A stretch of DNA of 64,000 nt from Maricaulis sp. (GTDB lineage Bacteria; Pseudomonadota; Alphaproteobacteria; Caulobacterales; Maricaulaceae): contig NZ_JAEPNI010000005.1 in NCBI RefSeq assembly GCF_017643475.1, forward strand, positions 62,001-126,000, given 5' to 3'. How positions within the stretch are numbered: the first letter of the stretch is position 1; each line of letters begins with the position of its first letter. Made by a program: the position numbers and the translations under genes. Of the stretch, positions 39,288 through 57,531 are shown piece by piece. Below the pieces are notes generated by a model. That model was not told where the DNA came from, searched no databases, and saw nothing but the letters and a program-made list of their open reading frames with translations.

Positions 39288-39288
39288 T

Positions 39289-39517: not shown

Positions 39518-39521
39518 AGGG

Positions 39522-39540: not shown

Positions 39541-39544
39541 GGAC

Positions 39545-40237: not shown

Positions 40238-40267
40238 GGGCTGTCCTCTCGCTATCTACCTGTGACG

Positions 40268-40285
40268 TTTCAAACACCAGACCGT
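40268..40285 (-). promoter_or_regulatory. Sigma54-like promoter (P6) for the divergent membrane protein
   Basis: Minus strand: ACGGTCTGGTGTTTGAAA, i.e. GG-N8-TTGAA. The -24 GG and spacing fit sigma54, but the -12 is GA rather than GC, as in two other promoters of this cluster. It ends 31 bp before the ATG at 40237. Confidence 0.4.
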
Positions 40286-40345
40286 TCCCACAACTCTCTG
40301 ATATTGTGTAATTATGTCGAAATCCGGCTATGGCACATCCAATTT

Positions 40346-40404
40346 CTTTTGCATTTTGCAAAAGCCTTTCTCGCTATTTGCGAATTGCAACACGCATATC
40401 GCAT
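40346..40404. promoter_or_regulatory. Upstream activator sites, TTGCA-N3-TGCAA type, between divergent EPS promoters
   Basis: Three sites: CTTTTGCATTTTGCAAAAG (40346-40364, perfect 8-bp arms around TTT), TTGCGAATTGCAA (40378-40390) and the weaker ACGCATATCGCAT (40392-40404). They lie about 65-120 bp from the -24 elements of both P1 and P6. Similar sites occur at 49228-49283, 50892-50947 and 56237-56249. Likely enhancers for the NtrC-type regulator encoded at 53390. Confidence 0.6.
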
Positions 40405-40465
40405 CACACCCCACGAGGGATAAATCTAAGTATTTATTTTAATTGATTTATTTGCCCACATAATG

Positions 40466-40483
40466 CTGGCCCGCGACTTGCGA
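40466..40483 (+). promoter_or_regulatory. Sigma54-like promoter (P1) of the main EPS operon
   Basis: CTGGCCCGCGACTTGCGA, matching TGGCACG-N4-TTGC with the invariant GG and GC 10 bp apart. It lies 22 bp before the ATG at 40506 and downstream of three palindromic activator sites. Confidence 0.65.
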
Positions 40484-40505
40484 CCTCCAAGGGCAGGAGG
40501 CCAAG

Positions 40506-40742
40506 ATGCGCAAAGACTTCAAACTATCCTCGCCCAACCAGATCCGGGCATTCGACCGGGCACTGTTTGATTATCTGAATGTGGTTTTCGAGCGCCCGAA
40601 CCCGCGCAGCGTGTTTGTCGAAGCGCGCAATGAGGGCAGCGAGACGGTCAAGACCATCGATTGCAATTGCCCGCAAACGGCGATCGAACTCGCCAACCAC
40701 ATCGCCAGTGCCCTGGCCCAACGCTCCGCTGGCAGGGCTTGA
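40506..40742 (+). CDS. Small uncharacterised protein, first gene of the EPS operon
   Basis: 78 residues; GGAGG lies 5 nt before the ATG. No signal peptide or membrane helix. The sequence (MRKDFKLSSPNQIRAFDRAL at the start, then VNEGSETVKTIDC-like basic/acidic middle and a Cys-x-Cys, ending in an Ala-rich helix) matches no family I know. It starts the operon directly downstream of P1 and 3 bp before the OPX gene, so expression with the export genes is likely. A soluble accessory or regulatory role is possible but unproven. Confidence 0.7.
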   Translation: MRKDFKLSSPNQIRAFDRALFDYLNVVFERPNPRSVFVEARNEGSETVKTIDCNCPQTAIELANHIASALAQRSAGRA

Positions 40743-40745
40743 TCG

Positions 40746-41978
40746 ATGAAAGCGCTGCTCGCTCTCCCCCTGGCCCTGACTCTGGCATCCTGCGCTACCG
40801 CGTTCGAGGAACCGCGCAATACTGTCGACCTGACAACCCAGGCTTACACCACCGCGCGGCGCCCGATGACCAACGTCGCGGAGGTCCCGCTGCGCGGGCA
40901 GGGCCGCTATGGAGACCTGGCACGCTGCGCGGATGCAGACCTACCGATGTCCACCGTGGAGGGGCTGAGCTACGCAGCAAGTTCGGTTCTGGATACTCCG
41001 CCCCTGTCGCCCGGTGACATGCTTCGCCTGAGCGTCCCGGCCGGCGAGATGTTCAACGGAAGTTACATCATTGCTGCTGATGGACATTTGTCCGTGCCGC
41101 ACCTGCCGCCGGTCCCCGCAGCCGGGTTCTCGGTGGAGGTTGTTGAAGCCTTGCTGGCGGAAATGTTTATCGAGGCCGGCTTGTATCGCGCCGGTTTTCT
41201 GCAGATTGATCTGGATGTGGCCCAGTGGGCCCCCGTCCAGGTCTATGTATCGGGCGCAGTTTTCCAGCCTGGAGACCAGTTCCTCAACGACCGGCAGGCC
41301 GATGCCGTACAGGGTACGCGTGTTGACGCCCAGGGCGACATCTCGTCGGGTCGTACGCTCATCTCCGCCCTGTCCGCGGCCTCGGGCTTGCGCCCGGATG
41401 CCGACGTTCGACACGTTGTTCTGGTCCGCGATGGTCAGCGCCAGATCTACGACATGTCCGGTGCATTCAGCGGCCAACGGGTCATGGACCCGCTGCTGGC
41501 CGCCGGTGACCAGATCCACGTCCCCTCGCGAGGATGTTTCCAGGAAGCGCTGGCTCGGCCGAGCCGGGTTACCATACCGGGCATTCGCGTGTTCATGTCA
41601 AACCTGACGACCCCGGCCTCGTCGAACTCCCAGTCCGCCATCAACCGCGACACAACCAGCCTGCCCTACGGAACCCGGTTCCTGCAGGCCCTGGTGACCG
41701 CCAACTGTGTCGGCGGCACGCAGGCGACCAACGCAGACCGCTGGGCCGTCCTCATCTCCCGCAATCCGGTAACCGGCGAAAGCGAAGTTATCGCCCGCTC
41801 GATCGAGGGCCTGGTTCGCCGGGCAGATCGCGATGCGTTCAACCCCATTCTTCTGCCCGGGGACGCCATCGCCTGTTACGACTCTCATGTCACCAATGTT
41901 CGCGACGTGATCAGCGCCTTCAGTGGCGTCCTGAACCCCGCGATCAACTTGACCATTCTCAGCGGAGCGTCCCGATGA
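40746..41978 (+). CDS. Polysaccharide export outer-membrane lipoprotein (OPX, Wza-like)
   Basis: 410 residues. A lipoprotein signal ends LTLASC (Cys about 16). The Poly_export domain covers about residues 80-160 (LSPGDMLRLSVPAGEMFNGSYIIAADGHLSVPHLPPV), followed by SLBB-type segments (VQVYVSGAVFQPGDQF, and ISALSAASGLRPDADVRHVVLVRDG). The second half has further cysteines and a repeated export-like fold (LLPGDAIACYDSHVTNVRDVI). It would form the outer-membrane exit channel for the polysaccharide. The stop overlaps the PCP start by 4 bp. Confidence 0.9.
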   Translation: MKALLALPLALTLASCATAFEEPRNTVDLTTQAYTTARRPMTNVAEVPLRGQGRYGDLARCADADLPMSTVEGLSYAASSVLDTPPLSPGDMLRLSVPAGEMFNGSYIIAADGHLSVPHLPPVPAAGFSVEVVEALLAEMFIEAGLYRAGFLQIDLDVAQWAPVQVYVSGAVFQPGDQFLNDRQADAVQGTRVDAQGDISSGRTLISALSAASGLRPDADVRHVVLVRDGQRQIYDMSGAFSGQRVMDPLLAAGDQIHVPSRGCFQEALARPSRVTIPGIRVFMSNLTTPASSNSQSAINRDTTSLPYGTRFLQALVTANCVGGTQATNADRWAVLISRNPVTGESEVIARSIEGLVRRADRDAFNPILLPGDAIACYDSHVTNVRDVISAFSGVLNPAINLTILSGASR

Positions 41979-43444
41979 AACGACCGCTGATCCCGAACCC
42001 GCCAGAGCCACCGCCGCGCGACACTCCTCGAACCCTGCTGCGCGACGCGGACTTCGCCACCGCCCGTTCGTCCCTCCTAGGGCGGTTGGTCGTCGGCTCT
42101 GGCGGACCCCGCCGGTGGTTGCGCTATGTCATGGTTCTCCTGATCGGCGCCCTGTTTTTCGGCGGCACTGCGAGCTTCTACTACCTGACGACTCCAAAGA
42201 CCTATGTCAGCGGCTTCACCCTGATCCTTCCCGGATCCGGCGCGGGCGCCAACGTAAACCTGACAGAGCTGGGGCAAGCGACGACCGCGACCTCGTCCGC
42301 GTTCTCGAGTACGTCACTGAGCCCGACCGAAAACTACAAGCGCCTGCTGCAATCCGACCGGATCCGCGGAGCCGCGGCCCGGCTCGCCAATGTGCCAGCT
42401 GAGGATTTTGCCACCACGCGTGTCAGGCTGGTTGACCGGACTCCGCTGATCTATGTCCGACTGACTGAAAATGATCCGGAAGGCGCGCTCCACGCCGCCA
42501 ATGCCCTGCTCACGGCATTCCAGAGCAATCTCGACGCACTGCGCCAGGAGGAGCTGGATGCCCGCGATCTTGCCTATCGTGAGAGCCTGGCCGGGTATGA
42601 ACGCAATGTCGTTGCAACGCGCCAGGCCGTGCTGGAATTCCAGGCGGAAAGCGGCCTCATCTCGATTGAACAATACCAGTCGCTGGTGACAGAAACAGAC
42701 GAGCTTGAACGCACGCTTGATGTCGCCATCAACAACGCACGCGCACTGTCTCGCCGCTCCGCGCGCCTTGGCGAGTTGATCGACCTGCCCGAGGACGTTG
42801 CCGCGCGCGTACTGGTATTGCGCGGCGATGCCATCTTCGACGCCCTGCTTGCGCAATTGTCCGAAAGCGCGACTCTGCTGGCCGGCTTTGAAAACATGTA
42901 CGGCCGCAATCATCCTGAAATGCGGGCAGAGACAGAACGTCATGCCGGACTGTTCGATGCCCTGAATGCGCGGGGCGAAGCCCTGCTCGGGGCAGCCGGG
43001 TACGGCCTTCTGCGTCTGGCCGAAATCCAGCTCGATGACGAACGCGCGGAACTGCTGCGCCAGGTCGTGGACCTGTCGGCGCAGGCAGAAGGTGCGCGCA
43101 CGGAAGCCCGTTCGCTGCAGGACCGGCTGATCCGCAACGAACAGCGTGTCGAACAACTCGCTCCGGTCGCAGCTCGCCTGGACGCCCTGCTGCGCGAGCA
43201 CCAGGTGGCCGAAACGGTTTTCGCCTCCGCCCTGGCGCGTCTGGACACGTCCCGTGCCGATGTCTTCGCATCCTATCCTCTGGCGCAGTTGCTGGAACCG
43301 CCAGCGCGCCCGGATCGCCCGTCATCCCCCTCCAAGAAAATCGCTGCCCTCGCAGCAGTCGGAGGCTTTTTCCTCTATTGCATGGGAGTATTGCTGCTGT
43401 GGCTTCGCCTGCCGCTCATCCGCGCGCTGTGGAAGATTATCTAG
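41975..43444 (+). CDS. Polysaccharide co-polymerase / chain-length protein (Wzz-like PCP)
   Basis: 489 residues from ATG 41975 (ATGA overlap). One membrane helix near residues 50-72 (YVMVLLIGALFFGGTASFYYL), a Wzz-type domain (YVSGFTLILPGSGAGANVNLTELGQ, SPTENYKRLLQSDRI), a long coiled-coil region (about 180-420) and a second helix near 465-483. There is no tyrosine-kinase domain. PCPs set polysaccharide chain length and contact the OPX channel. The Pro-rich N-terminal tail is cytoplasmic by topology. Confidence 0.88.
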   Translation: MKRPLIPNPPEPPPRDTPRTLLRDADFATARSSLLGRLVVGSGGPRRWLRYVMVLLIGALFFGGTASFYYLTTPKTYVSGFTLILPGSGAGANVNLTELGQATTATSSAFSSTSLSPTENYKRLLQSDRIRGAAARLANVPAEDFATTRVRLVDRTPLIYVRLTENDPEGALHAANALLTAFQSNLDALRQEELDARDLAYRESLAGYERNVVATRQAVLEFQAESGLISIEQYQSLVTETDELERTLDVAINNARALSRRSARLGELIDLPEDVAARVLVLRGDAIFDALLAQLSESATLLAGFENMYGRNHPEMRAETERHAGLFDALNARGEALLGAAGYGLLRLAEIQLDDERAELLRQVVDLSAQAEGARTEARSLQDRLIRNEQRVEQLAPVAARLDALLREHQVAETVFASALARLDTSRADVFASYPLAQLLEPPARPDRPSSPSKKIAALAAVGGFFLYCMGVLLLWLRLPLIRALWKII

Positions 43445-44700
43445 TCGCGCTTGCACTCGCCGCGACCTGGCCGGTCTACATGATCGGAGGACTGTATGTC
43501 CTCGGCCCGGTTCTCGGTGTTTGCCTGACCGCGATTGTCCTGGTCCGCAAATATGTCAGGACACCCACAACCCCGCGTCCCGCACCGCCCAACATTCCAA
43601 TCGGTGTATGGATCTGGACGGCCGGCATGGTGGTCATGCTGATCGCACTCTGGGTCGGCCACTGGAGCTTCGAGCTGTCGACAGGGCAGACCATCAAGTC
43701 CTCCATCGGATGGGCAAAAGGCTGGGCCCTGTTCGCGATGTTCACCCTCGCCGGCGCGTGCCTAGACATTCGCTACGAAACCATCCTGAAGGCGGCAGGC
43801 TTGACCTCGCTGATCACCCTGCTCCTCACGCCCGTCCTCTATGTCGCTCCGATGGTTGGACTTCCTGAAGTCCTGTTTGTCTCCCCCTTCCGTTTCGTTG
43901 GCGGGCCAGGGCCCGAATTCTTTGCGGTTCAGCTGTATTCCATCGACCCGATGGATGGATTGCCGCGCTGGCGCTTCTTCACACCCTGGTCCCCGGCGGC
44001 TGGATTGATCGGCAACCTCTACCTCATCCTCGCCCTAGAAGACCGTCGAACGTTCTGGAAAGTCACGGGCGTCCTGGCAGCCCTGGCCATTATCATCCTG
44101 TCCAAATCCCGCCTAGGGCTGTTGACGGCGGTCATCGTCTGGCCGACCGCTTTCGGCGTCTCGCAATTGCGCAGAAGCATCCTGTGGCTTGGCGCAGCAG
44201 TTCCCGCATTCCTGGCCGGTCTGTTCTCGCCCTTCATCCTTACCCAGCTCAGCGCCGCCTATGCAGGCCTGCGTGGCATGCGCGCGAACTCCAACCGCGT
44301 TCGGGAAGCACTGGGTCGGATCGCGATTGATCGCTGGTGGAATGAAGCTCCTGTCTGGGGACACGGTGTCGTCGAGCGCGGACCGCATCTGGTCGAATAC
44401 ATGCCCATCGGCAGCCACCACACCTGGTTCGGATTGCTGTTTGTGAAGGGGGCCGTCGGCGTTGCAGCACTGGCCCTTCCCCTGCTCTGGAGTCTGCTGG
44501 AGTTTGCCCTTTTGGCCCTGTCCAGCAGAATTGGACGCGCTGCGTTCGCAATCACCCTCCTGCTCGCCCTGTTTACGATCGGTGAGAACCTGGAGATCCT
44601 CACTTATCTGTTCTGGCCGGGCATGGTCGTAATGGGGCTTGCAATGCGCGAAGCCTCGGAAAAACGCACGTCGAATTCATTTGAGAGGCCCACGACATGA
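43429..44700 (+). CDS. O-antigen ligase/Wzy-like polysaccharide polymerase
   Basis: About 423 residues from GTG 43429, overlapping the PCP gene by 16 bp; TTG 43378 is another in-frame start. About ten to twelve hydrophobic helices. The Wzy_C-type block IIILSKSRLGLLTAVIVWP (helix with Ser-Arg) and a large loop with VWGHGVVERGPHLVEYMPIGSHHTWFGLLFVKGAVG (His/Arg-rich periplasmic loop) fit WaaL/Wzy proteins. In this cluster it probably polymerises lipid-linked repeat units in the periplasm. It overlaps the GT4 gene by 4 bp. Confidence 0.82.
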   Translation: MEDYLVALALAATWPVYMIGGLYVLGPVLGVCLTAIVLVRKYVRTPTTPRPAPPNIPIGVWIWTAGMVVMLIALWVGHWSFELSTGQTIKSSIGWAKGWALFAMFTLAGACLDIRYETILKAAGLTSLITLLLTPVLYVAPMVGLPEVLFVSPFRFVGGPGPEFFAVQLYSIDPMDGLPRWRFFTPWSPAAGLIGNLYLILALEDRRTFWKVTGVLAALAIIILSKSRLGLLTAVIVWPTAFGVSQLRRSILWLGAAVPAFLAGLFSPFILTQLSAAYAGLRGMRANSNRVREALGRIAIDRWWNEAPVWGHGVVERGPHLVEYMPIGSHHTWFGLLFVKGAVGVAALALPLLWSLLEFALLALSSRIGRAAFAITLLLALFTIGENLEILTYLFWPGMVVMGLAMREASEKRTSNSFERPTT

Positions 44701-45890
44701 GCCACCCAGTCCGTCCGTTGCTGTTCGTTCCGCGTTATTGGCCGGGCATGGGAGGAGCTGAACTGCACTCCCGCCGCCTGGCACAGGAACTCGCCCTCCA
44801 GGTTCCGATCGAAGTCGCCCGGTGCTGCGATGAAGAGGCACGCCCAACTGACCTTGCCTTTGCCTACGCCGAACCGCGATGCGTGCGCGACGATGACATG
44901 CTGGTTCACACCATCGCCCCCGCAAATTCCTGGAAGGGCGGTATTCGGCTCCTCGCTGAAGCGTCGAAGCGGTCACGCATTGCCAGGGGTGTTTATGGCC
45001 ACCTGGCACGCCGCCTCGCCCGATCGAGTTTTCAAAACATCGCCGACGGAGCGACCGTTGCGCATGCAATCTACAATGGCTTCACGCCCGGCGCCCAGGC
45101 ACTGCAGGCGCTCGGCAAGCCGTTTGTCTGGACGCCCCTCGCCCATACAACCAAACCGACCGGGACCGCCTGGTCATCACCTCAGTTTCGCGCACTGTAT
45201 CGCAAGGCGGATGCTCTCATCGCCATGACTGATTTTGAGCGCGAATGGCTGATCGGTCAGGGAGCGTCGCCATCGCGCGTCCATGTCTGCCCCATGGCGC
45301 CCTTGTTCGCCGAAGATGTCCCCGAACCTCAACTGTTCCGAGAAAATCACGCCCTGGGCGAGGACCCCTTCATTCTCTTTCTGGGCCGCACCGCGCAATA
45401 CAAGGGCTATGGCACCGTTCTGGAAGCAACGCCCCGGATCTGGGAACAACACCCGACCGCGCGATTTGTATTCGCCGGCCCGGTTACATCCGAGGCAAGC
45501 GCGCTGTTTTCCCAACATCAGGATCCCCGCATCCTAGTGACTGGCCCGCTCACAGACGCCGACAAGAAGTCCGCGCTGGCAGCGTGCAGCCTGGTATGCG
45601 TCCCGTCGACCGAAGAAAGCCTCGGCGTCGTATATCTGGAGGGCTGGTCGTTCGAGAAACCGGTGATCGCCGCCGATATTCCTGCCCTGCAATCCGTAAT
45701 CGAGTCCGGCAAAGACGGCCTGCTCATCGAGCCCTCCACACTGGCTGTCGCCAACGCGGTCGCTGAGTTGCTAGGCCGCCCGAGCTGGGCTGCCGAATTG
45801 GGCAAGAATGGCGCCCGTAAGGTTGAGCGCCAATATAACTGGGCGTCCATCGCGGACGCCCATCTGAAAATCTACCAATCTGTGATCTGA
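44697..45890 (+). CDS. Glycosyltransferase family 4
   Basis: 397 residues. N-domain LLFVPRYWPGMGGAELHSRRLAQELA has the GT4 Gly-Gly-x-Glu acceptor-side motif; the C-domain has LFLGRTAQYKGYGTVLEA and VCVPSTEESLGVVYLEGWSFEKPVIA (E-x7-E nucleotide-sugar site). It is a retaining GT-B enzyme adding one sugar to the lipid-linked repeat unit on the cytoplasmic face. It is the last gene of the rightward EPS operon. Confidence 0.92.
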   Translation: MSHPVRPLLFVPRYWPGMGGAELHSRRLAQELALQVPIEVARCCDEEARPTDLAFAYAEPRCVRDDDMLVHTIAPANSWKGGIRLLAEASKRSRIARGVYGHLARRLARSSFQNIADGATVAHAIYNGFTPGAQALQALGKPFVWTPLAHTTKPTGTAWSSPQFRALYRKADALIAMTDFEREWLIGQGASPSRVHVCPMAPLFAEDVPEPQLFRENHALGEDPFILFLGRTAQYKGYGTVLEATPRIWEQHPTARFVFAGPVTSEASALFSQHQDPRILVTGPLTDADKKSALAACSLVCVPSTEESLGVVYLEGWSFEKPVIAADIPALQSVIESGKDGLLIEPSTLAVANAVAELLGRPSWAAELGKNGARKVERQYNWASIADAHLKIYQSVI

Positions 45891-45902
45891 CACTGGCGGC
45901 TG

Positions 45903-45921
45903 GCGCCTAATTTGCAGGCGC
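45903..45921. terminator. Hairpin between convergent EPS operons
   Basis: GCGCCT-AATTTGC-AGGCGC, perfect 6-bp arms, 13 bp after the GT4 stop and overlapping the 3' end of the convergent GT2 gene. Likely serves one or both transcripts; no strong T-run. Confidence 0.45.
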
Positions 45922-46902
45922 TGCACCCGGCAAGGCGATTGCCTCGAGCTGCGCGAAGACAGCTTCCGGCATAATCCTGAGGGCGATCGCCGCCAGAAGT
46001 GTTGTTGCCGTTTTCACCGGTTCGCGAAGCAGTGCGACCGGTGCCTTCATCAGAGCCCTGGTTGTCAATTTCAATGCTAGACCCCGATCGCGCATCCGTA
46101 CGGCTCGACGCGCGAGATAACGAAGCTGGAACGCTTCAGCGGCCGCCTCCCAGCGACGTGCGAAATGCGGCGAAATCCCTCGCACCTTGTTGCGAACGTA
46201 CAGCCAGCTGTCGAATTGCGCCTCGATATTGGCCGAAAGCCCGCCCGCATTGACACGATAACCGGTGAGAGCTCCCGGGATGCCCTCAAACTGCCAATCA
46301 GTCTGCAAGGCGATGCGCAACCAGCAATCGATATCCTCAGACTGTTTCAGACGTTCATCGAACCATTCCGTTTCTCCTGCAAACCGGGAAGAGGGTTGCG
46401 CAATGCTATCAAAGACCGCGCGTCTGATAACGGGCGTGGACCCATTACTCACCGGGTTTCGCTGGAAAATGTCGCGCGCCGAGATATTGGTCAGCCGAGG
46501 GCGCTGTTCCATGCCCAGGGGCACGCCCCGCTCATCGATCAGCTTGGCCCCGGAAAAACTAACGCCCACGTCCGGCCTCTCGCGCAAATGCTCCAGATGC
46601 CGCTCCAGCTTCTGGGGGTGCCACAAGTCATCCGAATCCAGGAAGGCGATGATCTCCCCACGGGCATAGCGAATTCCGCTATTGCGTGCCCCTGCGAGCC
46701 CCCGATTCTCCTGGCTGATGATACGAACCCGCGGGTCAATGAACGCCCGGCAAAGCTCGATTGAATTGTCCGAACCGCCATCATCAATGATGAGAAGTTC
46801 AAGATTCTCATAGGTCTGGGCCAAGACACTCTCGACCGCCGCCTCGACATATCTCTCGACATTGTAAACAGGCATGGCAACAGAAACGATTGGGGAGGTC
46901 AT
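45907..46902 (-). CDS. Glycosyltransferase family 2
   Basis: 331 residues from ATG 46902 (4-bp ATGA overlap with the upstream GT2 gene). The GT-A fold starts IVSVAMPVYNVERYVEAAVESVLAQTYENLELLIIDDGGSDNS, with EIIAFLDSDDLWHP as the DxD metal site and QSEDIDCWLRIAL as the catalytic-base region. It ends with an amphipathic or membrane-associating helix. An inverting transferase for the repeat unit. Last gene of the leftward wzx-GT2-GT2 unit. Confidence 0.92.
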   Translation of the reverse strand: MTSPIVSVAMPVYNVERYVEAAVESVLAQTYENLELLIIDDGGSDNSIELCRAFIDPRVRIISQENRGLAGARNSGIRYARGEIIAFLDSDDLWHPQKLERHLEHLRERPDVGVSFSGAKLIDERGVPLGMEQRPRLTNISARDIFQRNPVSNGSTPVIRRAVFDSIAQPSSRFAGETEWFDERLKQSEDIDCWLRIALQTDWQFEGIPGALTGYRVNAGGLSANIEAQFDSWLYVRNKVRGISPHFARRWEAAAEAFQLRYLARRAVRMRDRGLALKLTTRALMKAPVALLREPVKTATTLLAAIALRIMPEAVFAQLEAIALPGAAPAN

Positions 46903-49107: not shown

Positions 49108-49134
49108 GAAAGTGTCCTTTCGTTGATCCTGAGG

Positions 49135-49152
49135 TTTCAATTCCGGCGCCAG
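49135..49152 (-). promoter_or_regulatory. Sigma54-like promoter (P5) for the flippase unit
   Basis: Minus strand: CTGGCGCCGGAATTGAAA (GG-N8-TTGAA), 27 bp before the flippase ATG. It is divergent from P4 at 49361, with activator-like palindromes between. The -12 element is GA, not GC. Confidence 0.45.
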
Positions 49153-49227
49153 ACACCTGGAAATCTATTTATATGAATAATTTCAGAAGCTTATGAATTC
49201 CCTTCTTTCAGGCAGCACGATCGGAAT

Positions 49228-49283
49228 TCGCGATATGCGAGACAGATCTGGCAAATCACGCCTCTGACCATTGCATTTTGAAA
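49228..49283. promoter_or_regulatory. Activator-site palindromes shared by P4 and P5
   Basis: TCGCGATATGCGA (49228-49240) and TTGCATTTTGAAA (49271-49283). The second differs by one base from the perfect EPS site at 40349-40361. They lie about 80-135 bp from the -24 elements of both flanking promoters. The 301-bp gap 49108-49408 is AT-rich and holds no gene. Confidence 0.5.
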
Positions 49284-49360
49284 ATCAACTGCGCGCCACC
49301 TTCACTTCTATATTCGAATTAAAATCATTAAAACATACACTTAGATACTATTCTGCAAAA

Positions 49361-49378
49361 CTGGTTCTCAGCTTGAAG
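49361..49378 (+). promoter_or_regulatory. Sigma54-like promoter (P4) for the GT26-PGT fusion gene
   Basis: CTGGTTCTCAGCTTGAAG: GG-N8-TTGAA, 30 bp before the ATG at 49409. The -12 is GA. The start has its own AAGGAG 9 nt upstream. Confidence 0.45.
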
Positions 49379-49408
49379 CACTCCGAGTGAAGTTTAAGGA
49401 GTAATAAC

Positions 49409-50869
49409 ATGGTTGATTTGCCGCTGACCGCATCGGATGAAAGCCTGGCTTCGATCGCTGCATTCAAGCCCCAGACGACGACCTTTTGCCAACCGACAAG
49501 AGAGGAGGTCGGCCCGACAACCGATGTCCTGGGGCTCCAGCTTCTTACCTTGTCGCAGTCAGAGACCATCGATCTCCTGATTGAACGCCTCAACCACAGG
49601 GCCAAGACTCGTATTGCCTTCCTGAATGCGCATTGCGCCAATGTCGCATCAACGGACTGGCAGTATCGCCAAGCCCTGGAGTCGTGCACCTTGGTTCTGC
49701 CGGACGGCATCGGCATTGAGATGGCCAGCCGCCTCGGTGGAGATCCGATCAAACATGATCTCAATGGCACGGACTTGTTTCCTAAACTCTGTGACGCTCT
49801 GCGCGATGCCGACAAATCGGTATTCTTCCTCGGCGGGCGGCCAGGGATCGCGGAAGCTACGGCGCAGGCGGCGGTGAAAACCTGTCCAGGCTTGCGCATC
49901 GCAGGCACCCAACATGGGTATTTCGGCCCACAGGACGAAACCGCCATTATCGACCAGATCAATGTGGCACGCCCGGACGTGGTGCTGGTCGCGATGGGTG
50001 TTCCTGTTCAGGATACCTGGCTGGCCAGGGTAGGCGCCCGCATCAATGCTCCATTATTGGCAGGTGTCGGCGGCCTGTTCGATTTCGTCTCCGGCGCAAC
50101 GCCCCGCGCACCGGCATGGGTACGCAAAACCCGCCTCGAATGGGCCTACCGGCTGATCCAGGAACCACGCCGGATGTGGAAACGATACCTTCTCGGAAAC
50201 ATCGCCTTTGTCGCACGAGCGCTGGCTCATGGCTGGAAACGACGCTCAGCGGCTCGCCGAAAAACACTCAGCCTGGCCCTCAAGCGCGCACTCGACCTCT
50301 GCGCCAGCGCCCTGGCCATCACCGCACTCTCGCCAGTCCTTCTGCTCACAGCGCTCTCGATCCGACTGGAAAGCCGTGGCCCGGTATTGTTCCGCCAACA
50401 ACGGGTCGGCGAAGACGGAACGACTTTCGAGATGTTCAAATTCAGATCCATGTACACCGACGCAGAGGCCCGGCTGGATCAGCTTCTACAGGCTAATGAT
50501 CGTAACGATGGCGTCACCTTCAAACTCAAGCACGACCCCCGCGTAACCGGCATCGGTCGCTGGATCCGAAAGTATTCGATCGATGAGTTACCCCAGCTTT
50601 TCAACGTCTGGCGCGGGGACATGTCGCTTGTCGGCCCTCGCCCGGCACTACAGCGCGAAGTGGAGAGGTATTCCGCATTGGATCGCGAGCGCCTTTGTGG
50701 CAAGCCCGGTATCACCGGCATCTGGCAAGTGAGCGGTCGCGCTGACATTCCGTTCCAGAAAATGGTCGAGATGGATGTGCGCTATCTCAAGACGCGGACA
50801 CTGATCACGGATCTTGTCATTCTTGCCCGGACGCCTCTCGCTGTTGTGTCCGCACGGGGCGCTTACTGA
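49409..50869 (+). CDS. Bifunctional GT26 (WecG/TagA) glycosyltransferase fused to a phosphoglycosyltransferase
   Basis: 486 residues. Residues about 35-245 are a WecG/TagA/CpsF domain: RIAFLNAHCANVAS, LVLPDGIGIEMASRL, LNGTDLFPKLCDALRDADKSVFFLGGRPGIAEA, and LVAMGVPVQDTWLAR. Residues about 290-486 are a bacterial sugar transferase (WcaJ/PglC-type): one membrane re-entrant helix, GPVLFRQQRVGEDGTTFEMFKFRSMYTDAEARLD, SIDELPQLFNVWRGDMSLVGPRPAL (catalytic Asp-Glu pair about 392-393) and GITGIWQVSGR. One protein would both load the first sugar-phosphate on undecaprenyl phosphate and add the second sugar. Behind its own promoter P4. Confidence 0.92.
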   Translation: MVDLPLTASDESLASIAAFKPQTTTFCQPTREEVGPTTDVLGLQLLTLSQSETIDLLIERLNHRAKTRIAFLNAHCANVASTDWQYRQALESCTLVLPDGIGIEMASRLGGDPIKHDLNGTDLFPKLCDALRDADKSVFFLGGRPGIAEATAQAAVKTCPGLRIAGTQHGYFGPQDETAIIDQINVARPDVVLVAMGVPVQDTWLARVGARINAPLLAGVGGLFDFVSGATPRAPAWVRKTRLEWAYRLIQEPRRMWKRYLLGNIAFVARALAHGWKRRSAARRKTLSLALKRALDLCASALAITALSPVLLLTALSIRLESRGPVLFRQQRVGEDGTTFEMFKFRSMYTDAEARLDQLLQANDRNDGVTFKLKHDPRVTGIGRWIRKYSIDELPQLFNVWRGDMSLVGPRPALQREVERYSALDRERLCGKPGITGIWQVSGRADIPFQKMVEMDVRYLKTRTLITDLVILARTPLAVVSARGAY

Positions 50870-50891
50870 CGCAAACACCCCATAATGGTGG

Positions 50892-50947
50892 TTGCAAAAT
50901 GAAAAAATGTGGTGTTGCATATTGCAATGACACTGCAATATGCAACA
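50892..50947. promoter_or_regulatory. Activator-site cluster including a perfect 14-bp inverted repeat
   Basis: Arms TGTTGCATATTGCA (50913-50926) and TGCAATATGCAACA (50934-50947) are perfectly complementary across a 7-nt spacer. Each arm is itself a TTGCA-N3-TGCAA site (50915-50927 and 50933-50945), and a third site TTGCAAAATGAAA is at 50892-50904. They lie 65-120 bp before the -24 of P2. Confidence 0.65.
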
Positions 50948-50974
50948 AATCGTGTCGGGCGAGATCCCACTAAA

Positions 50975-50988
50975 CCTTTGATCAAAGG
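50975..50988. promoter_or_regulatory. Perfect 14-bp palindrome between activator sites and P2
   Basis: CCTTTGATCAAAGG, fully self-complementary, 24 bp upstream of P2. The binding protein is unknown; it differs from the TTGCA sites, so a second regulator of the kinase-regulator operon is possible. Confidence 0.4.
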
Positions 50989-51009
50989 TCACATCTCGCC
51001 CCACAAGAC

Positions 51010-51027
51010 CCGGCCCTCCCCTTGCAG
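51010..51027 (+). promoter_or_regulatory. Sigma54-like promoter (P2) for the kinase-regulator operon
   Basis: CCGGCCCTCCCCTTGCAG: invariant GG and GC 10 bp apart with a consensus TTGCA -12 element, 29 bp before the ATG at 51057. It implies the signalling genes are under the control of their own output (autoregulation). Confidence 0.65.
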
Positions 51028-51056
51028 CGCCCAGCACTGCGAGAAGGAGATCCGGG

Positions 51057-53393
51057 ATGACACACGCCAAAACAACCTCATCGACAACAGGGGCACTCGG
51101 GAGGTTAGCCGTGGGCTCTCATGACCAACACGCCGAGGACGCGGATGCCGCTTTGCGAGCTGCGCTCTTCCAGGCGGCCCTCGACTGCATCATCATTATC
51201 GACTCCGCCGGGTTGATCGTGGAGTTCAACGAAGCAGCTGAACGAACCTTTGGTCACAAGCGCGGCGCCGTGCTGGGGCAATGCATGGCCGAAATCCTGG
51301 TGCCCGAGAAGCTGCGCAATGCACATTTCTCAGGCATGGAGAAATACCTGCAATCAGGAGCCCATGCCGTCTTGGGAAAGCGCATCGAAGTTCCCGCCCT
51401 GCACAAGGATGGACGCGAACTAATGGTCGAGCTGGCGATCACGCCGGTCCACCTTACCGATCAGACGTATTTTACAGCCTACCTGCGTGACATCACAGAG
51501 CGCCTGGCCGCCGAAGCAGAACTCAAGAATTCCCGCCAGCGCTATCGCGACCTGTTCGAGAGCTCCGGCGACGCGATCTTCATCCATTCGCTGGATGGAA
51601 AGATCATCGATGTAAACGAGAGTGCGGAACAACTGGTCGGCTGGAAGCGGGATGAATTGATCGGCATGCGTCTTCCAACGCTCCACCCGGTCGACGACCA
51701 CGCAGTGGCCAAGACCGCAATCGCGAAGGTCCGGGAAGCGGGAGACACCCGCCTGGACATCCGCTTCCTGCACAAGTCAGGCGTCGAAATTCCAACCGAA
51801 GTGAATGCACGAACATTTGAGGCAGACGGAGAGGTTCTGGTGCATGCGGTCGTGCGAGACGTATCAGAAAGGGCGCGGACCGAAGCCGAACTAAGAGCGG
51901 CAAAAACCGAGGCCGAACAAGCGAATGCCGCCAAGACCGAGTTTCTGGCCAATATGAGTCATGAAATGCGCACGCCGCTGAATGGTGTCATCGGCCCGCT
52001 CGGTCTGATCCAGCGCTCCGAGCTAAGCCCCGAGGCCGCACGCATGGTGAAATTGGCAGAGCGCTCCGCAGAAAGCCTGCTGACCCTGATCGACGACGTT
52101 CTCGACATCAGCCACATCGAATCCGGGCGCATCGAGTTGAGCGACGAAGCCTACGCCCCCAACGACATCCTCGACCAGGTCCGCGAGATATTTTCCAACT
52201 CAACAGCGGACAAGGGCATCAGCCTTGCCGTCGATAACCTTCCGGAGACCCTGCGACTGGTCGGAGACGCAGGCCGGGTTCGCCAGGTCCTGTTCAATCT
52301 GGTTGGCAATGCGATCAAGTTCACGTCGTCCGGCTCGGTCACAGTCAAGGCAGGGCTGACATCATCACCGGACGGACCGCAACTCTCCTTCTCGGTCATC
52401 GATACTGGCGTAGGTTTTGACCAGGACCGTCTGCCGGAACTGTTCTCACGCTTTCAACAGGGCGGTGGCGCCAGCTCGGTGACGGATGGTGTAGGCCTCG
52501 GGCTCGCCATCACGCGGGAGCTTGTGGAGCTGATGGGGGGGGACATCGACGCAACCAGCAAGGTGGGCGAAGGCAGCACTTTTTGTGTGCGAATTCCGGC
52601 GATAGACGCAGCCCCGGAAACTCCGTCAACTCCTGACAGACAACGCCAATCGGAACATCTGCAGGGGCGTGTCCTGTTGGCGGAAGACAGCAATACCAAC
52701 GCCGTCGTCGTTGCCAATATGCTGGCCAGAATTGGAATCGAGCCTGTAATCGTTCCCGACGGAGCGGCAGCGGTTCAAGCCATTGAGGACCAGGTGTTCG
52801 ATCTGATTATCATGGACGTCGGAATGCCTGTCATGGACGGCCTGGAAGCGTCTCGACTGATCCGCCAGTCCGGCAACAATATTCCCATCATCGCCCTGAC
52901 AGCGCACGCACTGCCCGAAAACCGGGAACAGACCCAGGCGGCCGGCATGAATGGATTCCTGACCAAACCCATCCGATTGAACGAGCTTGTACGCGAATTA
53001 CGCAAATGGCTGCCTGCCGCCGACATCGCCGCGCACGCTGTACTCGATCCTGGCTGCATCACCGAACGCTGGGAAGACGACCTGGATGGGTATGCCTTTG
53101 TCCTCGGCATCTTCCTGGATGAGCTTGCCAACCGGCAGGCAACCATCACCGAACATCTGCAGTCCCAAGACCTGGGCAGGCTGAGACATGAGGCCCACGC
53201 CATCAAGGGTGGTGCCAGCAATGTCGGCGCCGACGCCTTGTCACACGCCGCGGGGCGACTGGAACACGCCTCCGGTATGGATCAGCGTGACGGCACTCTG
53301 GACAGGCTGCTGGCCAACCTGGGCCGTGCCGCCGAGGCCTTCAGACAGGAGGCCGAGAAACACATCACCCCACCCCAAGGAGAACAAGGATGA
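51057..53393 (+). CDS. Soluble hybrid histidine kinase: PAS-PAS-HisKA-HATPase-REC-HPt
   Basis: 778 residues, no membrane helix, so a cytoplasmic sensor. PAS1 about 35-150 and PAS2 about 160-275 (each starting RALF/YRDLF and ending DITER/DVSER); HisKA with autophosphorylated His302 in ANMSHEMRTPLNG; HATPase with VGNAIKFTSSG, DTGVGFD and GVGLGLAI; receiver domain 537-655 with Asp587 (LIIMDVGMP) and Lys637 (LTKPI); C-terminal HPt with His714 (HAIKGGASNVGA). This is a complete four-step phosphorelay in one protein, able to pass phosphate to the regulator encoded next (4-bp ATGA overlap). The PAS ligand is unknown. Confidence 0.93.
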   Translation: MTHAKTTSSTTGALGRLAVGSHDQHAEDADAALRAALFQAALDCIIIIDSAGLIVEFNEAAERTFGHKRGAVLGQCMAEILVPEKLRNAHFSGMEKYLQSGAHAVLGKRIEVPALHKDGRELMVELAITPVHLTDQTYFTAYLRDITERLAAEAELKNSRQRYRDLFESSGDAIFIHSLDGKIIDVNESAEQLVGWKRDELIGMRLPTLHPVDDHAVAKTAIAKVREAGDTRLDIRFLHKSGVEIPTEVNARTFEADGEVLVHAVVRDVSERARTEAELRAAKTEAEQANAAKTEFLANMSHEMRTPLNGVIGPLGLIQRSELSPEAARMVKLAERSAESLLTLIDDVLDISHIESGRIELSDEAYAPNDILDQVREIFSNSTADKGISLAVDNLPETLRLVGDAGRVRQVLFNLVGNAIKFTSSGSVTVKAGLTSSPDGPQLSFSVIDTGVGFDQDRLPELFSRFQQGGGASSVTDGVGLGLAITRELVELMGGDIDATSKVGEGSTFCVRIPAIDAAPETPSTPDRQRQSEHLQGRVLLAEDSNTNAVVVANMLARIGIEPVIVPDGAAAVQAIEDQVFDLIIMDVGMPVMDGLEASRLIRQSGNNIPIIALTAHALPENREQTQAAGMNGFLTKPIRLNELVRELRKWLPAADIAAHAVLDPGCITERWEDDLDGYAFVLGIFLDELANRQATITEHLQSQDLGRLRHEAHAIKGGASNVGADALSHAAGRLEHASGMDQRDGTLDRLLANLGRAAEAFRQEAEKHITPPQGEQG

Positions 53394-54814
53394 GCATTGG
53401 CCGCGTCCTGATCATTGAAGACAGCCCGTCCCTGGCCCGCACCTACGAGGCCCAGCTCAAACGCGATGCGGCCGCGATCGAGATCGCCGAAGATGGGGCC
53501 GCCGGCGAACGCGCCATGGGCGCTGGCCGACCTGACTGTATTCTCCTCGACCTGAACCTGCCCGACGCCAACGGCATGGACCTGCTCAAGGCGTGGCGCG
53601 CATCCGGCGTGACAACGCCGGTCGTCGTGATCACCGCCAACGGCTCGATCAATGTTGCCATCGATGCCATGCGCGAGGGCGCAACGGACTTTCTGGTCAA
53701 ACCCTTTGGCGCCGACCGTCTGATCACGACCGTGAAGAATTCGGTTGAGAAATCCAAGCTGGAAAAGGTCGTTCGAGCGCTCGAGCAGAGCAAACCGAAG
53801 ACCCAGTTTGCGGAGTTTATCGGCTCCTCCCTGCCCATGCAGGCCGTCTACCGCGTATTGGAAACGGCCGCCCCGTCAAACGCCGGCGTGTTCATCACCG
53901 GCGAGACCGGAACGGGCAAGGAATTGGCGGCCCGCGCTGTGCACAACTCCAGTGCCCGTGCCGGCAGGGCCTTTATCGCCGTGAACTGCGGCGCCATCCC
54001 GAAAGATCTGATCGAAAGCGAACTTTTCGGTCACGTAAAGGGCGCCTTCACCGGCGCAACATCGGACCGGGCCGGCGCTGCGGAATTGGCGAATGGCGGC
54101 ACACTATTCTTGGATGAGATCGGCGAAATGCCGATTGACCTGCAGCCGAAACTCTTGCGCTTCCTGCAAACCGGAACCTATGCGCGGGTCGGCGACAGTC
54201 GCGTTCGTCAAACCGACATCCGGATTGTTGGCGCAACCAATCGTGACCCGTGGGGCGCTGTGCGCGCCGGCCAGTTGCGGGAGGACCTTTACTTCCGCCT
54301 GAACGTCATACCTGTTGAGCTTCCGCCGTTGCGTGACCGCGGCGGCGATGTCCTCGCTCTCGCTGACGCCTTCCTGACACGATACGCCGAAGATGAAGGT
54401 CGCGACGCCTTGCTGTTCACCGAGGATGCCCGCCAGGCCTTGCTCGCTCACCACTGGCCCGGAAATGTCCGGGAGCTGGAAAACCTGGTCCGTCGCTGCG
54501 TTGTGTTGGCCGAAGGGTCGACGGTGGAGGCCTCAGACCTGGCGCTCGAACAGGGCTTTGCCCCTCGGAGCGAAGCGTTGTCCGCTGGAGTTGAGGCGAC
54601 GCCCGCAACTCCGCAACCCCGCGTCACGGGCATGGCACCTGCTGCGGCATCTCCGAGCGGCAACGGTATTGAGCCGCTGTGGGTTGTCGAGAAACGCGCC
54701 ATCGAACACGCGATCGCGCTGTGTCATGACAATATAACCGAGGCCGCGAAAAAGCTGGAAATCGCTCCATCCACGATCTATCGCAAGCGGGAACAGTGGG
54801 TCGAGAAAACCTGA
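53390..54814 (+). CDS. Sigma54-dependent NtrC-family response regulator
   Basis: 474 residues. Receiver domain 1-120 with phospho-acceptor Asp54 ([16 protein letters not shown]) and Lys104 (FLVKP). AAA+ domain about 143-380: Walker A GETGTGKE (171-178), the sigma54-contacting GAFTGA loop (218-223), Walker [12 protein letters not shown], and [20 protein letters not shown]-terminal Fis-type helix-turn-helix about 440-470 ([31 protein letters not shown]). It should bind enhancers, probably the TTGCA-N3-TGCAA sites, and open sigma54 promoters of the EPS genes when phosphorylated by the hybrid kinase. It is convergent with rpoN, 7 bp apart. Confidence 0.95.
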
Positions 54815-54821
54815 ATCGTCT

Positions 54822-56135
54822 TTAGGCTCGACCATAACCTGCCCAACGATACCGATCACGGGAACAACTGATACCCAGTTGCTTCCGGTGTTTCGCGACC
54901 GAGCGACGCGCTATCGCGATGCCCATTGCGCCAAGCCGGGACGAGATCAGCGCATCGGACATTTCGCCGGGGACGGCCTCCTCGCGGATGAGCCGATTTA
55001 TATGAGCCCGAACCGCTGTTGAAGACGACGCTTCACGCCCCTCATCCTGCCGGTCGACCGAGACCGAGAAGAACTGCCGGAGGGCCAGCACACCTCGCCG
55101 CGTCAGGATGTATTTGTGCGCCACCGCACGGCTGATCGTCGATTCATGGACACCCAGCTCCGCCGCCACCTCTCGCATGGTCAGCGGAATGAGATGGACG
55201 TCCCCTTCCTCCAGAAACCGATACTGGCGCCGAACCAGCAGACGCCCGACGCGCAGCAAGATTGCGCCTCGCTGCCTCAAAGCCTGCTGCAGCCAGTTCA
55301 CCTCGAGCTGCGCGGACTCCAGAAACCGGTGCGCCTCGGCGCAGAGCGTCCGGTCGGACCGCCAGTTCCGGTAGTCGACCTCCATGCTCAGCCGCGGACC
55401 ACACCCGCGTGCCAGTACGAGCTGGGTGTCACCGTCGCCCCCGGACCTCAGAACAAGGTCCGGCCTTACTTCAATGGGCTCAACAGGATCGTATTTGAGC
55501 CCCGGCGTCGGATCGAGCTGGCGCAGCAGGTCGAGCATGTCACGCAGCTCCACTTCATCAACATCACAAAGCCGGGCAAACGCGCTTGCCGGCACCTTGT
55601 GCAGCTCCGCCAGGTGTTCGAACAGTTTTCGCCACGCCTTTCGGGACTTCACGGCAGGATCCAGCTGAAGCCAGAAGCATTCTGGCAGATTGCGGGAGGC
55701 AACTCCGGCTGGTTCGAGCGATTGCACCAATTGCAGCGCCTTTCCGGCCTCGACATATTCACGCTCGATCCGCTCCCAATCGCCCGGGTCCAGTCGACCG
55801 GTGGGGTCAAGGCTATCAATGATCATACACGCCAGGTGTCGTACGCCGGCGCTGGTCCGCACCAATCCCAGCTGCGCCTTGAGGTCCTCTCCCAGGTGTC
55901 GACGCTCAGGCATCGAGGCAATCCTGTCTTCGCATTGCCCGGCAGACCCTCGCGATCGGGCCCATGTCGGCATCTCGGCGATCAACGGATTGGCCTCGCA
56001 AATCGCCGCCACCTCGCGCTCCAGATCATCCTGAGCAAGCCCTAGCAGATACATGGAGCGCTGAAGCTCCGGAGATATCGTCTGTTGCGTCGACAGCGAG
56101 TGAGAAATCTTGAAACGATGTGACAACTGGTTCAT
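54822..56135 (-). CDS. rpoN: RNA polymerase sigma54 factor, RpoN paralogue in the EPS cluster
   Basis: 437 residues from ATG 56135 (GGGGGA 6 nt upstream). Region I (residues about 1-50) is LSHRFKISHSLSTQQTISPELQRSMYLLGLAQDDLEREVAAICEANPLI, the activator-responsive Gln/Leu-rich part. The acidic region II is very short. Core binding, then TMREVAAELGVHESTISRAVAHKYILTRRGVLALRQFF and the RpoN box as ARRSVAKHRK (409-418; usual ARRTVAKYRE). The protein is shorter than typical RpoN (about 480-500). Location inside an EPS cluster, away from the usual rpoN-hpf-ptsN neighbours, suggests a second, dedicated sigma54. Confidence 0.9.
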   Translation of the reverse strand: MNQLSHRFKISHSLSTQQTISPELQRSMYLLGLAQDDLEREVAAICEANPLIAEMPTWARSRGSAGQCEDRIASMPERRHLGEDLKAQLGLVRTSAGVRHLACMIIDSLDPTGRLDPGDWERIEREYVEAGKALQLVQSLEPAGVASRNLPECFWLQLDPAVKSRKAWRKLFEHLAELHKVPASAFARLCDVDEVELRDMLDLLRQLDPTPGLKYDPVEPIEVRPDLVLRSGGDGDTQLVLARGCGPRLSMEVDYRNWRSDRTLCAEAHRFLESAQLEVNWLQQALRQRGAILLRVGRLLVRRQYRFLEEGDVHLIPLTMREVAAELGVHESTISRAVAHKYILTRRGVLALRQFFSVSVDRQDEGREASSSTAVRAHINRLIREEAVPGEMSDALISSRLGAMGIAIARRSVAKHRKQLGISCSRDRYRWAGYGRA

Positions 56136-56236
56136 GGCGTCCCCCACCACCAGTATCCGCCCGCCAGCCCACCTCTCCAATACCTATACTTTTCAGTAAG
56201 ATAGACAAAATGCGCCGCTTCCTGCGAAGAAACGCG

Positions 56237-56264
56237 TTGCAATTTGCATCGCGATCTCTCGCGA
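56237..56264. promoter_or_regulatory. Activator-site palindromes upstream of P3
   Basis: TTGCAATTTGCAT (56237-56249; TTGCA-N3-TGCAT) followed by TCGCGA-TCTC-TCGCGA (56249-56264, perfect arms). The first starts 123 bp before the -24 GG of P3, the same spacing as the leading site of P1. The 275-bp gap between rpoN and galE holds no gene. Confidence 0.5.
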
Positions 56265-56357
56265 AACGCATTGCAGGTATTGGCGCGGATCGGGCCGGGC
56301 CTCCCAAAGCCCCAGCAAATGAAGCCCTTCCGGCAGGTTGCATGTTCAATGCGCCGT

Positions 56358-56375
56358 CCGGTCAAACCTTTGCAG
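56358..56375 (+). promoter_or_regulatory. Sigma54-like promoter (P3) for the EPS galE
   Basis: CCGGTCAAACCTTTGCAG: GG and GC 10 bp apart with consensus TTGCA. It ends 35 bp before the ATG at 56411. Confidence 0.6.
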
Positions 56376-56410
56376 CCTCCAGAGACAGGATTGCTGCATC
56401 GGAGGATGAG

Positions 56411-57430
56411 ATGACGCGCAAAATTCTTGTTCTGGGGGGAGCTGGCTATATCGGCGCCCATGTCGCCAAGGCTATCGCCCTGCGTGGCGACGTGCCGATA
56501 GTCATGGACAACTTGTCGTCGGGCCGGTCCGATTTCGTCAAATGGGGTCCGCTGGTGAAAGCCGACATCCGCGAGACCGCCGCCCTTGATGCCGTATTTC
56601 GGACCTTCCGACCGGACGCGGTCATGCACTTCGCGGCATCCATCGAGGTCGGCCTGGGTGAAACCGACCCAATCGGTTTCTGGAACAACAACGTGGCCGG
56701 AGCGCTGAATGTCCTGGAAGCCATGCAACTGCACAGCTGTCGATCGTTTGTCTTCTCCTCGACGTGCGCAGTCTATGGAAACCCCGAACGGCTACCGCTG
56801 TTCGAAACCCATTCGCGCCGCCCTATCAACACCTATGGCCGCACCAAGCTCGCAATCGAACAGGCGCTCGAAGACGCCGCCCGGGCCGGCCATATCGACT
56901 ATGCAGTCCTGCGCTACTTCAATGCGTCCGGCGCCAGCCCAGACGGCGAGATTGGTGAGGAACACGACCCCGAGACCCATCTCATACCACTGGCCCTGTT
57001 CGCAGCGCACGGTACGGGAGCACCGCTAAAAGTCTTCGGCTCGGATTACGAGACAGCAGACGGGAGCTGCATTCGCGACTACATCCATGTCAGCGATCTC
57101 GCGCGTGGACATCTACGCGCCCTGGATCGCCTGTTTGCGAGGCAGGAAAGTTTCACCTGCAATCTCGGCACCGGCCAGGGCGTATCGGTGTTTGAGGTCC
57201 TGCAGGCAGTCGAGCGTGTAACGGGGCGCAAAGTGCCCTTCTCGATCGCGCCCAGGCGAGACGGCGACCCGGCAGCCCTTTACGCCAATATCGAGTACGC
57301 CAAACACGTCCTCGGCTTCGTCACGCACCGGTCAACCATCAATCAAATCGTTCAGGACGCGTGGAACTATCACCGGCACCAGCCGGGTGCGGACCACCTG
57401 CCTGGAACCATGTGCTCACAAGGCGGCTAA
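56411..57430 (+). CDS. galE: UDP-glucose 4-epimerase (EPS cluster copy)
   Basis: 339 residues from ATG 56411, with GGAGG 5-9 nt upstream; the frame is open much further but through the promoter region. Marks: KILVLGGAGYIGAHVAKAI, SSTCAVYGNPE, NTYGRTKLAIE (YxxxK), FNASGASPDGEIGEEHDPETHLIP, DGSCIRDYIHVSDLA. It supplies UDP-galactose (or the GalNAc equivalent) for the polysaccharide. It is clearly related to, but not a recent copy of, the gal-operon galE at 36230. The C-terminal tail is about 14 residues longer. Confidence 0.94.
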   Translation: MTRKILVLGGAGYIGAHVAKAIALRGDVPIVMDNLSSGRSDFVKWGPLVKADIRETAALDAVFRTFRPDAVMHFAASIEVGLGETDPIGFWNNNVAGALNVLEAMQLHSCRSFVFSSTCAVYGNPERLPLFETHSRRPINTYGRTKLAIEQALEDAARAGHIDYAVLRYFNASGASPDGEIGEEHDPETHLIPLALFAAHGTGAPLKVFGSDYETADGSCIRDYIHVSDLARGHLRALDRLFARQESFTCNLGTGQGVSVFEVLQAVERVTGRKVPFSIAPRRDGDPAALYANIEYAKHVLGFVTHRSTINQIVQDAWNYHRHQPGADHLPGTMCSQGG

Positions 57431-57531
57431 TGCGACACGCATTGCAACCTTCAATTTCTCACCACGACAGCCCCCAGCCACGTAACGGGCCATGACGGAG
57501 ATTGAATCACCCACGGACGGTGTCATGCAGT

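Follow-up and report, generated by a model that had tools for sequence, protein, structure and literature searches.

A predicted LuxO/SypG-type sigma54 regulon for exopolysaccharide in Maricaulis, with a second RpoN in the cluster

Results

Boxes and sigma54 elements before the units of an exopolysaccharide cluster

The DNA studied here, called the window throughout, is a stretch of 64,000 nucleotides from Maricaulis sp. (Maricaulaceae; assembly GCF_017643475.1, contig NZ_JAEPNI010000005.1, positions 62,001 to 126,000), whose genome of 3.26 Mb in nine contigs is labelled G000. Between 39545 and 57430 the window holds a Wzx/Wzy-type exopolysaccharide (EPS) cluster that encodes Wza, a Wzc-type protein, a Wzy-like protein, a GT4 and two GT2 glycosyltransferases, Wzx, a WecG-Bac_transf fusion, a kinase, a regulator, an RpoN and GalE. 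We consider it likely that LuxO-type boxes and sigma54 elements upstream of these genes let the cluster's own LuxO/SypG-like regulator switch the EPS units on together, with the RpoN of the cluster, which we call RpoN2, as the likely dedicated sigma factor.

An initial annotation, made from the DNA alone, had reported six GG-N8-TTG(C/A) sites before the first genes of units, and all six are where it placed them. The -12 G lies 34, 26, 31, 34, 33 and 39 nt from the start codon, taking the elements in order. The chance of one such match in 60 start positions, put at a few percent, comes to 4.7%. The palindromes described further upstream are likewise present for all six elements, with 72-127 bp between the palindrome centre and the -24 GG, but only those at 40349 and 50915, the sole exact matches in the whole genome, are perfect; the other boxes listed below have one mismatch. 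Seven of the window's eight palindromes with up to one mismatch have A or T at all three middle positions, like the published LuxO site.

Sigma54-like elements
40270-40283, minus strand: element of the 230-aa gene, GG-N10-GA; GG-N10-GA in three of three relatives
40468-40481, plus strand: element of the wza unit, TGGCCC-N5-TTGCG; kept in three of three relatives
49137-49150, minus strand: element of wzx, TGGCGCCGGA-N-TTGAA; in four of four genomes
49363-49376, plus strand: element of wecG-bacT, GG-N10-GAAG; in four of four genomes
51012-51025, plus strand: element of the kinase-regulator operon, GG-N10-GCAG; in four of four genomes
56360-56373, plus strand: element of galE, GG-N10-GCAG

LuxO-type boxes
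40349-40361: exact, TTGCATTTTGCAA; 0-2 mismatches in relatives
40378-40390: one mismatch; exact in three of three relatives
49271-49283: one mismatch, between wzx and wecG; 4-6 mismatches in three relatives, not conserved
50892-50904: one mismatch; one mismatch in three of three relatives
50915-50927: exact; 0-1 mismatch in relatives
50933-50945: one mismatch; 1-2 mismatches in relatives
56237-56249: one mismatch, between rpoN2 and galE; 2-3 mismatches in relatives

Across the window the sigma54 pattern occurs 115 times against 86 expected, a modest excess that none of 100 shuffles reached, and the palindrome at up to two mismatches occurs 30 times against 28 expected, which is no excess. Because these counts alone are unimpressive, the signal lies in placement. 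All eight one-mismatch palindromes of the window fall within 40349-57454. The whole genome has 54, and eight in 40238-57454, an interval picked after the sites had been seen, compares with 0.29 expected (p ~5e-10).

The promoters are conserved in three relatives

The conserved synteny that the initial annotation had proposed to look for was found in three relatives of the same genus (G069, G072 and G075), which keep the gene order of the cluster, save that G072 has no galE at that place. The regulator is 83-91% identical in these relatives over the aligned parts and RpoN2 45-52%. In alignments of four promoter regions, GG-N10-G(C/A) is kept in all three relatives for five of the six elements, compared with one of 23 other matches to the pattern within these alignments (Fisher p = 0.0003); the single conserved control overlaps the start of wzx. 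The sixth element, that of galE, was aligned in one of three relatives, and G075 has CGGACCCATATTTGCG before galE, misaligned. The boxes at 40349, 40378, 50892, 50915 and 50933 are conserved, with 0-2 mismatches in relatives. About 40 bp from the box at 49271 is a degenerate box that has 2-4 mismatches in relatives.

The regulator resembles LuxO and the cluster resembles syp

Domain matches confirmed that the genes beginning at 51057, 53390 and 54822 encode a hybrid kinase, a GAFTGA-bearing regulator and an RpoN. The regulator combines REC, AAA+ with GAFTGA and a Fis-type helix-turn-helix (HTH), the make-up of LuxO/SypG-type enhancer-binding proteins, and its best matches are LuxO (551.1 bits in NCBIfam; E 7e-119 to PDB 5ep0). 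Of 11 DNA-binding residues named for LuxO, eight are identical and three differ, as counted by the residue numbers in passages of PMC11407668 rather than through an alignment with the LuxO sequence. The upstream activating sequence of LuxO is given as TTGCAW3TGCAA in passages of three papers (PMC10162802, PMC3352281, PMC11443567). Judged by its sequence, the palindrome of the EPS cluster is this published enhancer, and it stands above predicted sigma54 promoters, as expected of a LuxO/SypG-type system. Sigma54-activator domains occur in four proteins of the genome at E <= 1e-10: the cluster regulator, FlbD, NtrX (which lacks GAFTGA) and one NtrC-type protein.

Passages on Vibrio LuxO (PMC3352281, PMC11443567, PMC11407668) place the TTGCAW3TGCAA enhancer about 100 bp above a sigma54 promoter, as here, but the targets they describe are Qrr small RNAs; in a search of 36000-60000 for Qrr RNA, no Rfam family reached its gathering score. 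The syp locus of Vibrio fischeri is closer in content. According to passages of PMC10162802, PMC10804989 and PMC5801674, it has a hybrid kinase, SypF, and the LuxO-related SypG within a Wzx/Wzy EPS cluster, and SypG acts on several sigma54 promoters of that cluster, much like the arrangement here. The Maricaulis cluster shares the syp-type combination of an Hpt-bearing hybrid kinase and a sigma54 activator inside a Wzx/Wzy cluster. It differs in carrying an rpoN, which these passages do not name for syp, and in its boxes, which are LuxO-type where the reported SypG sequence is TTCTCANNNTGMDWN. We rejected TTCTCANNNTGMDWN as the enhancer of the cluster: at one mismatch it is not enriched in the window (5 matches against 7.3 expected). 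Three of the five matches fall within the cluster, and two of these three lie on LuxO-type boxes.

A PrsR assignment was rejected as well, the regulator scoring 377.9 bits against a cut-off of 502.6 (TIGR02915). Passages on PrsK/PrsR (PMC1569441, PMC9850573) describe two-component sigma54 control beside EPS genes, with an enhancer motif and -24/-12 elements, as here; the targets there are PEP-CTERM genes, and among the cluster genes scanned there was no match to an exosortase model.

The same architecture recurs in other bacteria

The regulator was found at E <= 1e-130 in 28 of 398 genomes of the order and 56 of 385 of the class, host included. With the Wzy alignment as query, 446 named loci were found, and the best 80 were taken. 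The regulator is present in 52 and absent from 25, some of which are short contigs belonging to the same groups; the remaining three were ambiguous and were excluded. Boxes with up to one mismatch occur at 1.94 per 10 kb in loci with the regulator (201 in 1037 kb, 49 of 52 loci) and at 0.61 per 10 kb in those without, compared with 0.06-0.36 and 0.12-0.47 per 10 kb, respectively, for five control palindromes.

In 47 regulator loci outside the Maricaulaceae, a sigma54 element lies near 103 of the 180 boxes, compared with 0-4 in shuffled flanks, and 34 of the 47 loci have at least one such pair. An element was counted when it had at most one mismatch to TGGCAYR-N4-TTGM and started 30-124 bp from the box edge; ten mononucleotide shuffles were made, and the loci are related rather than independent. 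The hosts of the related EPS loci are Hyphomonadaceae, sphingomonads and Halomonas-type gammaproteobacteria, with genera that include Erythrobacter, Croceicoccus, Halomonas, Kushneria, Salinicola and Henriciella. Two auxiliary surveys are to be read loosely. In the per-locus scoring of promoters the best sites were loosely chosen, contigs of L123-L132 recur among L168-L177, and a few loci (L136, L215) were misparsed. A pattern for the HTH caught 50 of 90 regulator matches, its misses including truncated loci and variants such as STLYRK, and we draw no count from it.

The architecture of LuxO-type box and predicted sigma54 promoter thus recurs in alpha- and gammaproteobacteria. Because related clusters combine a LuxO-type regulator with such promoters, the Maricaulis cluster belongs to a known kind, the LuxO/SypG-type sigma54 EPS regulon. 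Among the open-access titles and opening lines of abstracts listed, none deals with a LuxO-type EPS cluster that contains an rpoN, or with LuxO-type control of EPS in these alphaproteobacteria.

A second sigma54 accompanies the regulator in two genera

RpoN2 scores 301 bits against the cut-off of 277 of the sigma54 family TIGR02395 and has the AID, CBD and DBD Pfam domains. The other full-length rpoN of the genome, rpoN1, is on contig 7. Among 137 genomes of the family, two rpoN matches (RpoN2 as query, E <= 1e-40) occur in six, and the regulator (E <= 1e-140) in seven that include all six. In the seventh, G073, the rpoN next to regulator and kinase is broken into two pieces, of which one contains a stop, and Wzy has no match genome-wide. 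Of the 19 genomes of the genus, four have Wzy, and the same four have a second unbroken rpoN. The order sample of 398 genomes holds 12 more with more than one rpoN match; in 11 of these the extras are fragments, and G368 has two full-length rpoN genes without the regulator at E <= 1e-130.

In a tree, RpoN2 forms one clade apart from the RpoN1 of the order, with support of 100/97 at the midpoint root and 100/99 for the grouping; RpoN2 branches are long, which may affect the joining of Oceanicaulis. The tree leaves unsupported the idea that RpoN2 was recently copied from the RpoN of the family itself, placing it outside the RpoN1 clade of the order. Among the best 120 of 688 database proteins, ten besides RpoN2 itself are 44-88% identical to it and the rest at most 38%. 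Upstream of the predicted start of rpoN2, both Oceanicaulis genomes have two boxes and a GG-N10-GC element, which lies only about 10 bp from the nearer box. In the window, rpoN2 is convergent with the regulator gene, divergent from galE, outside the kinase-regulator operon, and served by none of the six sites.

Private pairs of RpoN and activator have a precedent. Passages of PMC11999139 report that Cereibacter sphaeroides, likewise an alphaproteobacterium, has several RpoN copies, of which those studied each pair with their own activator and genes. Its sets, unlike the one proposed here, are nif, flagella and xrpA; those passages name no EPS set under a LuxO-type activator.

Because three of the six elements carry GA instead of GC at -12, we considered a promoter dialect specific to RpoN2. 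Outside the Maricaulaceae, 106 distinct elements from 34 loci among L168-L242 have GC in 53 cases and GA in 44, so that the GA elements of the window are not peculiar to RpoN2, and the dialect was rejected.

Evidence against a dedicated switch and alternative explanations

Besides this lack of a dialect, several observations weigh against our interpretation. The regulator is below the LuxO equivalog cut-off (551.1 against 800 bits, NF041946). The box at 49271 is lost in relatives, and that at 56237 is weakly kept. Several elements of the window are further from the consensus than sphingomonad elements are. Of 11 loci of Hyphomonadaceae type in which boxes precede the kinase (L123-L132, L168), three have no site and eight have only low-scoring ones (8.5-12.4 of 16.4). 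Boxes also occur in 14 of the 25 loci without the regulator (25 in 408 kb). In this genome a single box, but no clear sigma54 element, accompanies rpoN2. Finally, of the 76 genomes outside Maricaulis and Oceanicaulis found to have the regulator, 40 were covered with 8-20 kb of the regulator locus each, and none of these 40 loci has an rpoN, though boxes and EPS genes are present in many. Nor is there an rpoN in the 80 Wzy loci, but their DNA often ends before the position that rpoN2 has in Maricaulis.

One alternative is that the regulon is real and RpoN2 incidental or redundant, with the ordinary RpoN of contig 7 driving the EPS promoters, as would presumably be the case in relatives that lack RpoN2, and RpoN2 having drifted or serving other promoters. 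We regard this as unlikely, though it must be taken seriously. In its favour are the 40 distant loci and the lack of a promoter dialect. Moreover, 19 of the 21 other regulator-bearing genomes of the order have a single rpoN match, while another has two fragments and the last, which is 78% complete, has no match; and RpoN2 evolves fast compared with the regulator in the three relatives. An incidental RpoN2 is harder to square with the second unbroken rpoN in all six family genomes where regulator and Wzy are found together, and its breakage in one without Wzy; with the retention of one RpoN2 clade in the same cluster of two genera; and with the LuxO-type boxes before rpoN2 in Oceanicaulis. That RpoN2 is the sigma factor used by the cluster is something we infer from co-occurrence only, and that it may be private to the EPS regulon is the least certain part of our reading.

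It is very improbable that the boxes are bound mainly by the NtrC-type regulator of contig 7 (L307), with the cluster regulator playing a minor part. L307 does have GAFTGA and the recognition helix RSTLYRK, and the helix core STLYRK is shared, a further point against our interpretation. Yet L307 scores 394 bits to LuxO where the cluster regulator scores 551, loci without the regulator are three times poorer in boxes among the 80 named loci, and five of seven exact boxes with an A/T middle in the 19 genomes of the genus fall in EPS clusters of regulator-bearing genomes. We give marginally less credence still to chance or structural palindromes and units on ordinary sigma70-type promoters. In favour of this reading, neither pattern is strikingly over-represented window-wide and some boxes are not conserved, but placement, conservation and recurrence in two classes speak against it.

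A distal kinase and the limits of the cluster

Outside the cluster, the matches listed include at least four further one-mismatch boxes with an A/T middle, and four were followed. Box C6:106936 lies 74 bp upstream of CGGCCCTGAACTTGCG and a gene for a GAF hybrid kinase (L059:9937-11783, contig 6 of G000), the promoter element reading CGGCCC-N5-TTGCG; the other three have no suitably placed sigma54 element. A search of 11 genomes gave, as the closest relative of this distal kinase (45%), the one encoded next to the regulator in G073, where box and sigma54 element are again present. There, on contig 130 (47289-51706; L068, L069), a broken rpoN lies between the regulator and the GAF hybrid kinase, and the locus may be a remnant of the switch or a re-used one. 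Because box and promoter are repeated in G073, the distal GAF hybrid kinase is probably a second sensor belonging to the EPS regulon. This reading draws on G000 and G073 only, because no one-mismatch box precedes a 41% relative of the kinase on contig 23 of G072.

The initial annotation had called the cluster an autonomous, self-contained switch. The part that stands is the cluster's own two-component activator, predicted to act on the EPS units and on its own operon. The words autonomous and self-contained do not, given the second full-length rpoN on contig 7, the 40 distant loci without rpoN, the distal kinase with the same promoter, and an rpoN2 that in this genome itself lacks a convincing sigma54 site.

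Gene content of the cluster

The genes of the cluster, with open reading frames (ORFs) numbered by window position, are as follows.

39545-40237, minus strand: 230-aa gene that opens the leftward unit; without a Pfam match; conserved in position in three relatives, at 51-53% identity
40506-40742, plus strand: 78-aa ORF heading the wza unit; no Pfam match; 65-68% identity in relatives
40746-41978, plus strand: Wza-type export protein; Poly_export match
41534-43444, plus strand: Wzc/chain-length-type ORF; NCBIfam matches under cut-off; start uncertain, perhaps near 41978
43378-44700, plus strand: Wzy-like polymerase; Wzy_C match under the Pfam cut-off; 80-81% in three relatives
44697-45890, plus strand: GT4 glycosyltransferase
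45907-46989, minus strand: GT2 glycosyltransferase
46899-47834, minus strand: GT2 glycosyltransferase
47827-49107, minus strand: Wzx-type flippase
49409-50869, plus strand: WecG/TagA glycosyltransferase fused to a Bac_transf priming transferase
51057-53393, plus strand: hybrid histidine kinase with PAS, HisKA, HATPase, REC and C-terminal Hpt
53390-54814, plus strand: LuxO/SypG-type sigma54 activator with REC, AAA+ with GAFTGA, and Fis-type HTH with PSTIYRK
54822-56135, minus strand: RpoN2, the genome's second sigma54; ORF open to 56180, likely start ATG 56135
56411-57430, plus strand: GalE, UDP-glucose 4-epimerase

The 230-aa and 78-aa genes, both conserved and without a Pfam match, head two divergent EPS units. 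The leftward unit (32236-40237, minus strand) runs on through overlapping genes for galT-, galK- and galE-like proteins, an alpha-galactosidase (GH36) and a beta-galactosidase (GH42), which places a galactoside operon of this strain behind one predicted sigma54 promoter. No galT or galK relative was found in 4-5 kb at the corresponding place of G069, G072 and G075, where only the 230-aa gene is present. Just 3' of the cluster are three minus-strand DDE transposase ORFs of the IS240 Pfam family (57612-58310, 60511-61206 and 63011-63709), hinting at past mobility.

Discussion

For the EPS regulon as a whole, we infer a phosphorelay, box binding, sigma54 use and autoregulation. The hybrid kinase with its Hpt domain would phosphorylate the regulator, which would then bind boxes 70-130 bp upstream, and its GAFTGA ATPase would open RNA polymerase-sigma54 at the GG-N10-G(C/A) elements. 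Six units would rise together: the 230-aa gene, wza-wzc-wzy, wzx, wecG-bacT, kinase-regulator and galE. The 230-aa unit probably includes the galactoside operon in this strain, and the kinase-regulator operon would provide positive feedback. RpoN2 would be an addition, seen in Maricaulis and Oceanicaulis, to a module that otherwise uses the ordinary RpoN.

The LuxO/SypG-type sigma54 EPS regulon is itself of a kind already known, and the unusual part in Maricaulis is the second RpoN. We are more tentative about how it arose. It is possible, if not quite probable, that an old LuxO-type EPS regulon of alpha- and gammaproteobacteria captured its own sigma54 in the Maricaulaceae, giving a closed module of kinase, activator and sigma factor in which the pair of RpoN2 and regulator is insulated from the ordinary RpoN and, in Oceanicaulis, feeds back on rpoN2.

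If the predicted EPS regulon is borne out, the LuxO enhancer and its regulator would shift from Vibrio quorum sensing to an EPS switch of many alpha- and gammaproteobacteria. Elements that read TTGA at -12, common among these promoters, would depart from the GC rule. Systems that are similar in activator, boxes and EPS genes but differ in having or lacking a private sigma54 would also offer a natural comparison for how and why a sigma54 paralogue becomes dedicated to one activator.

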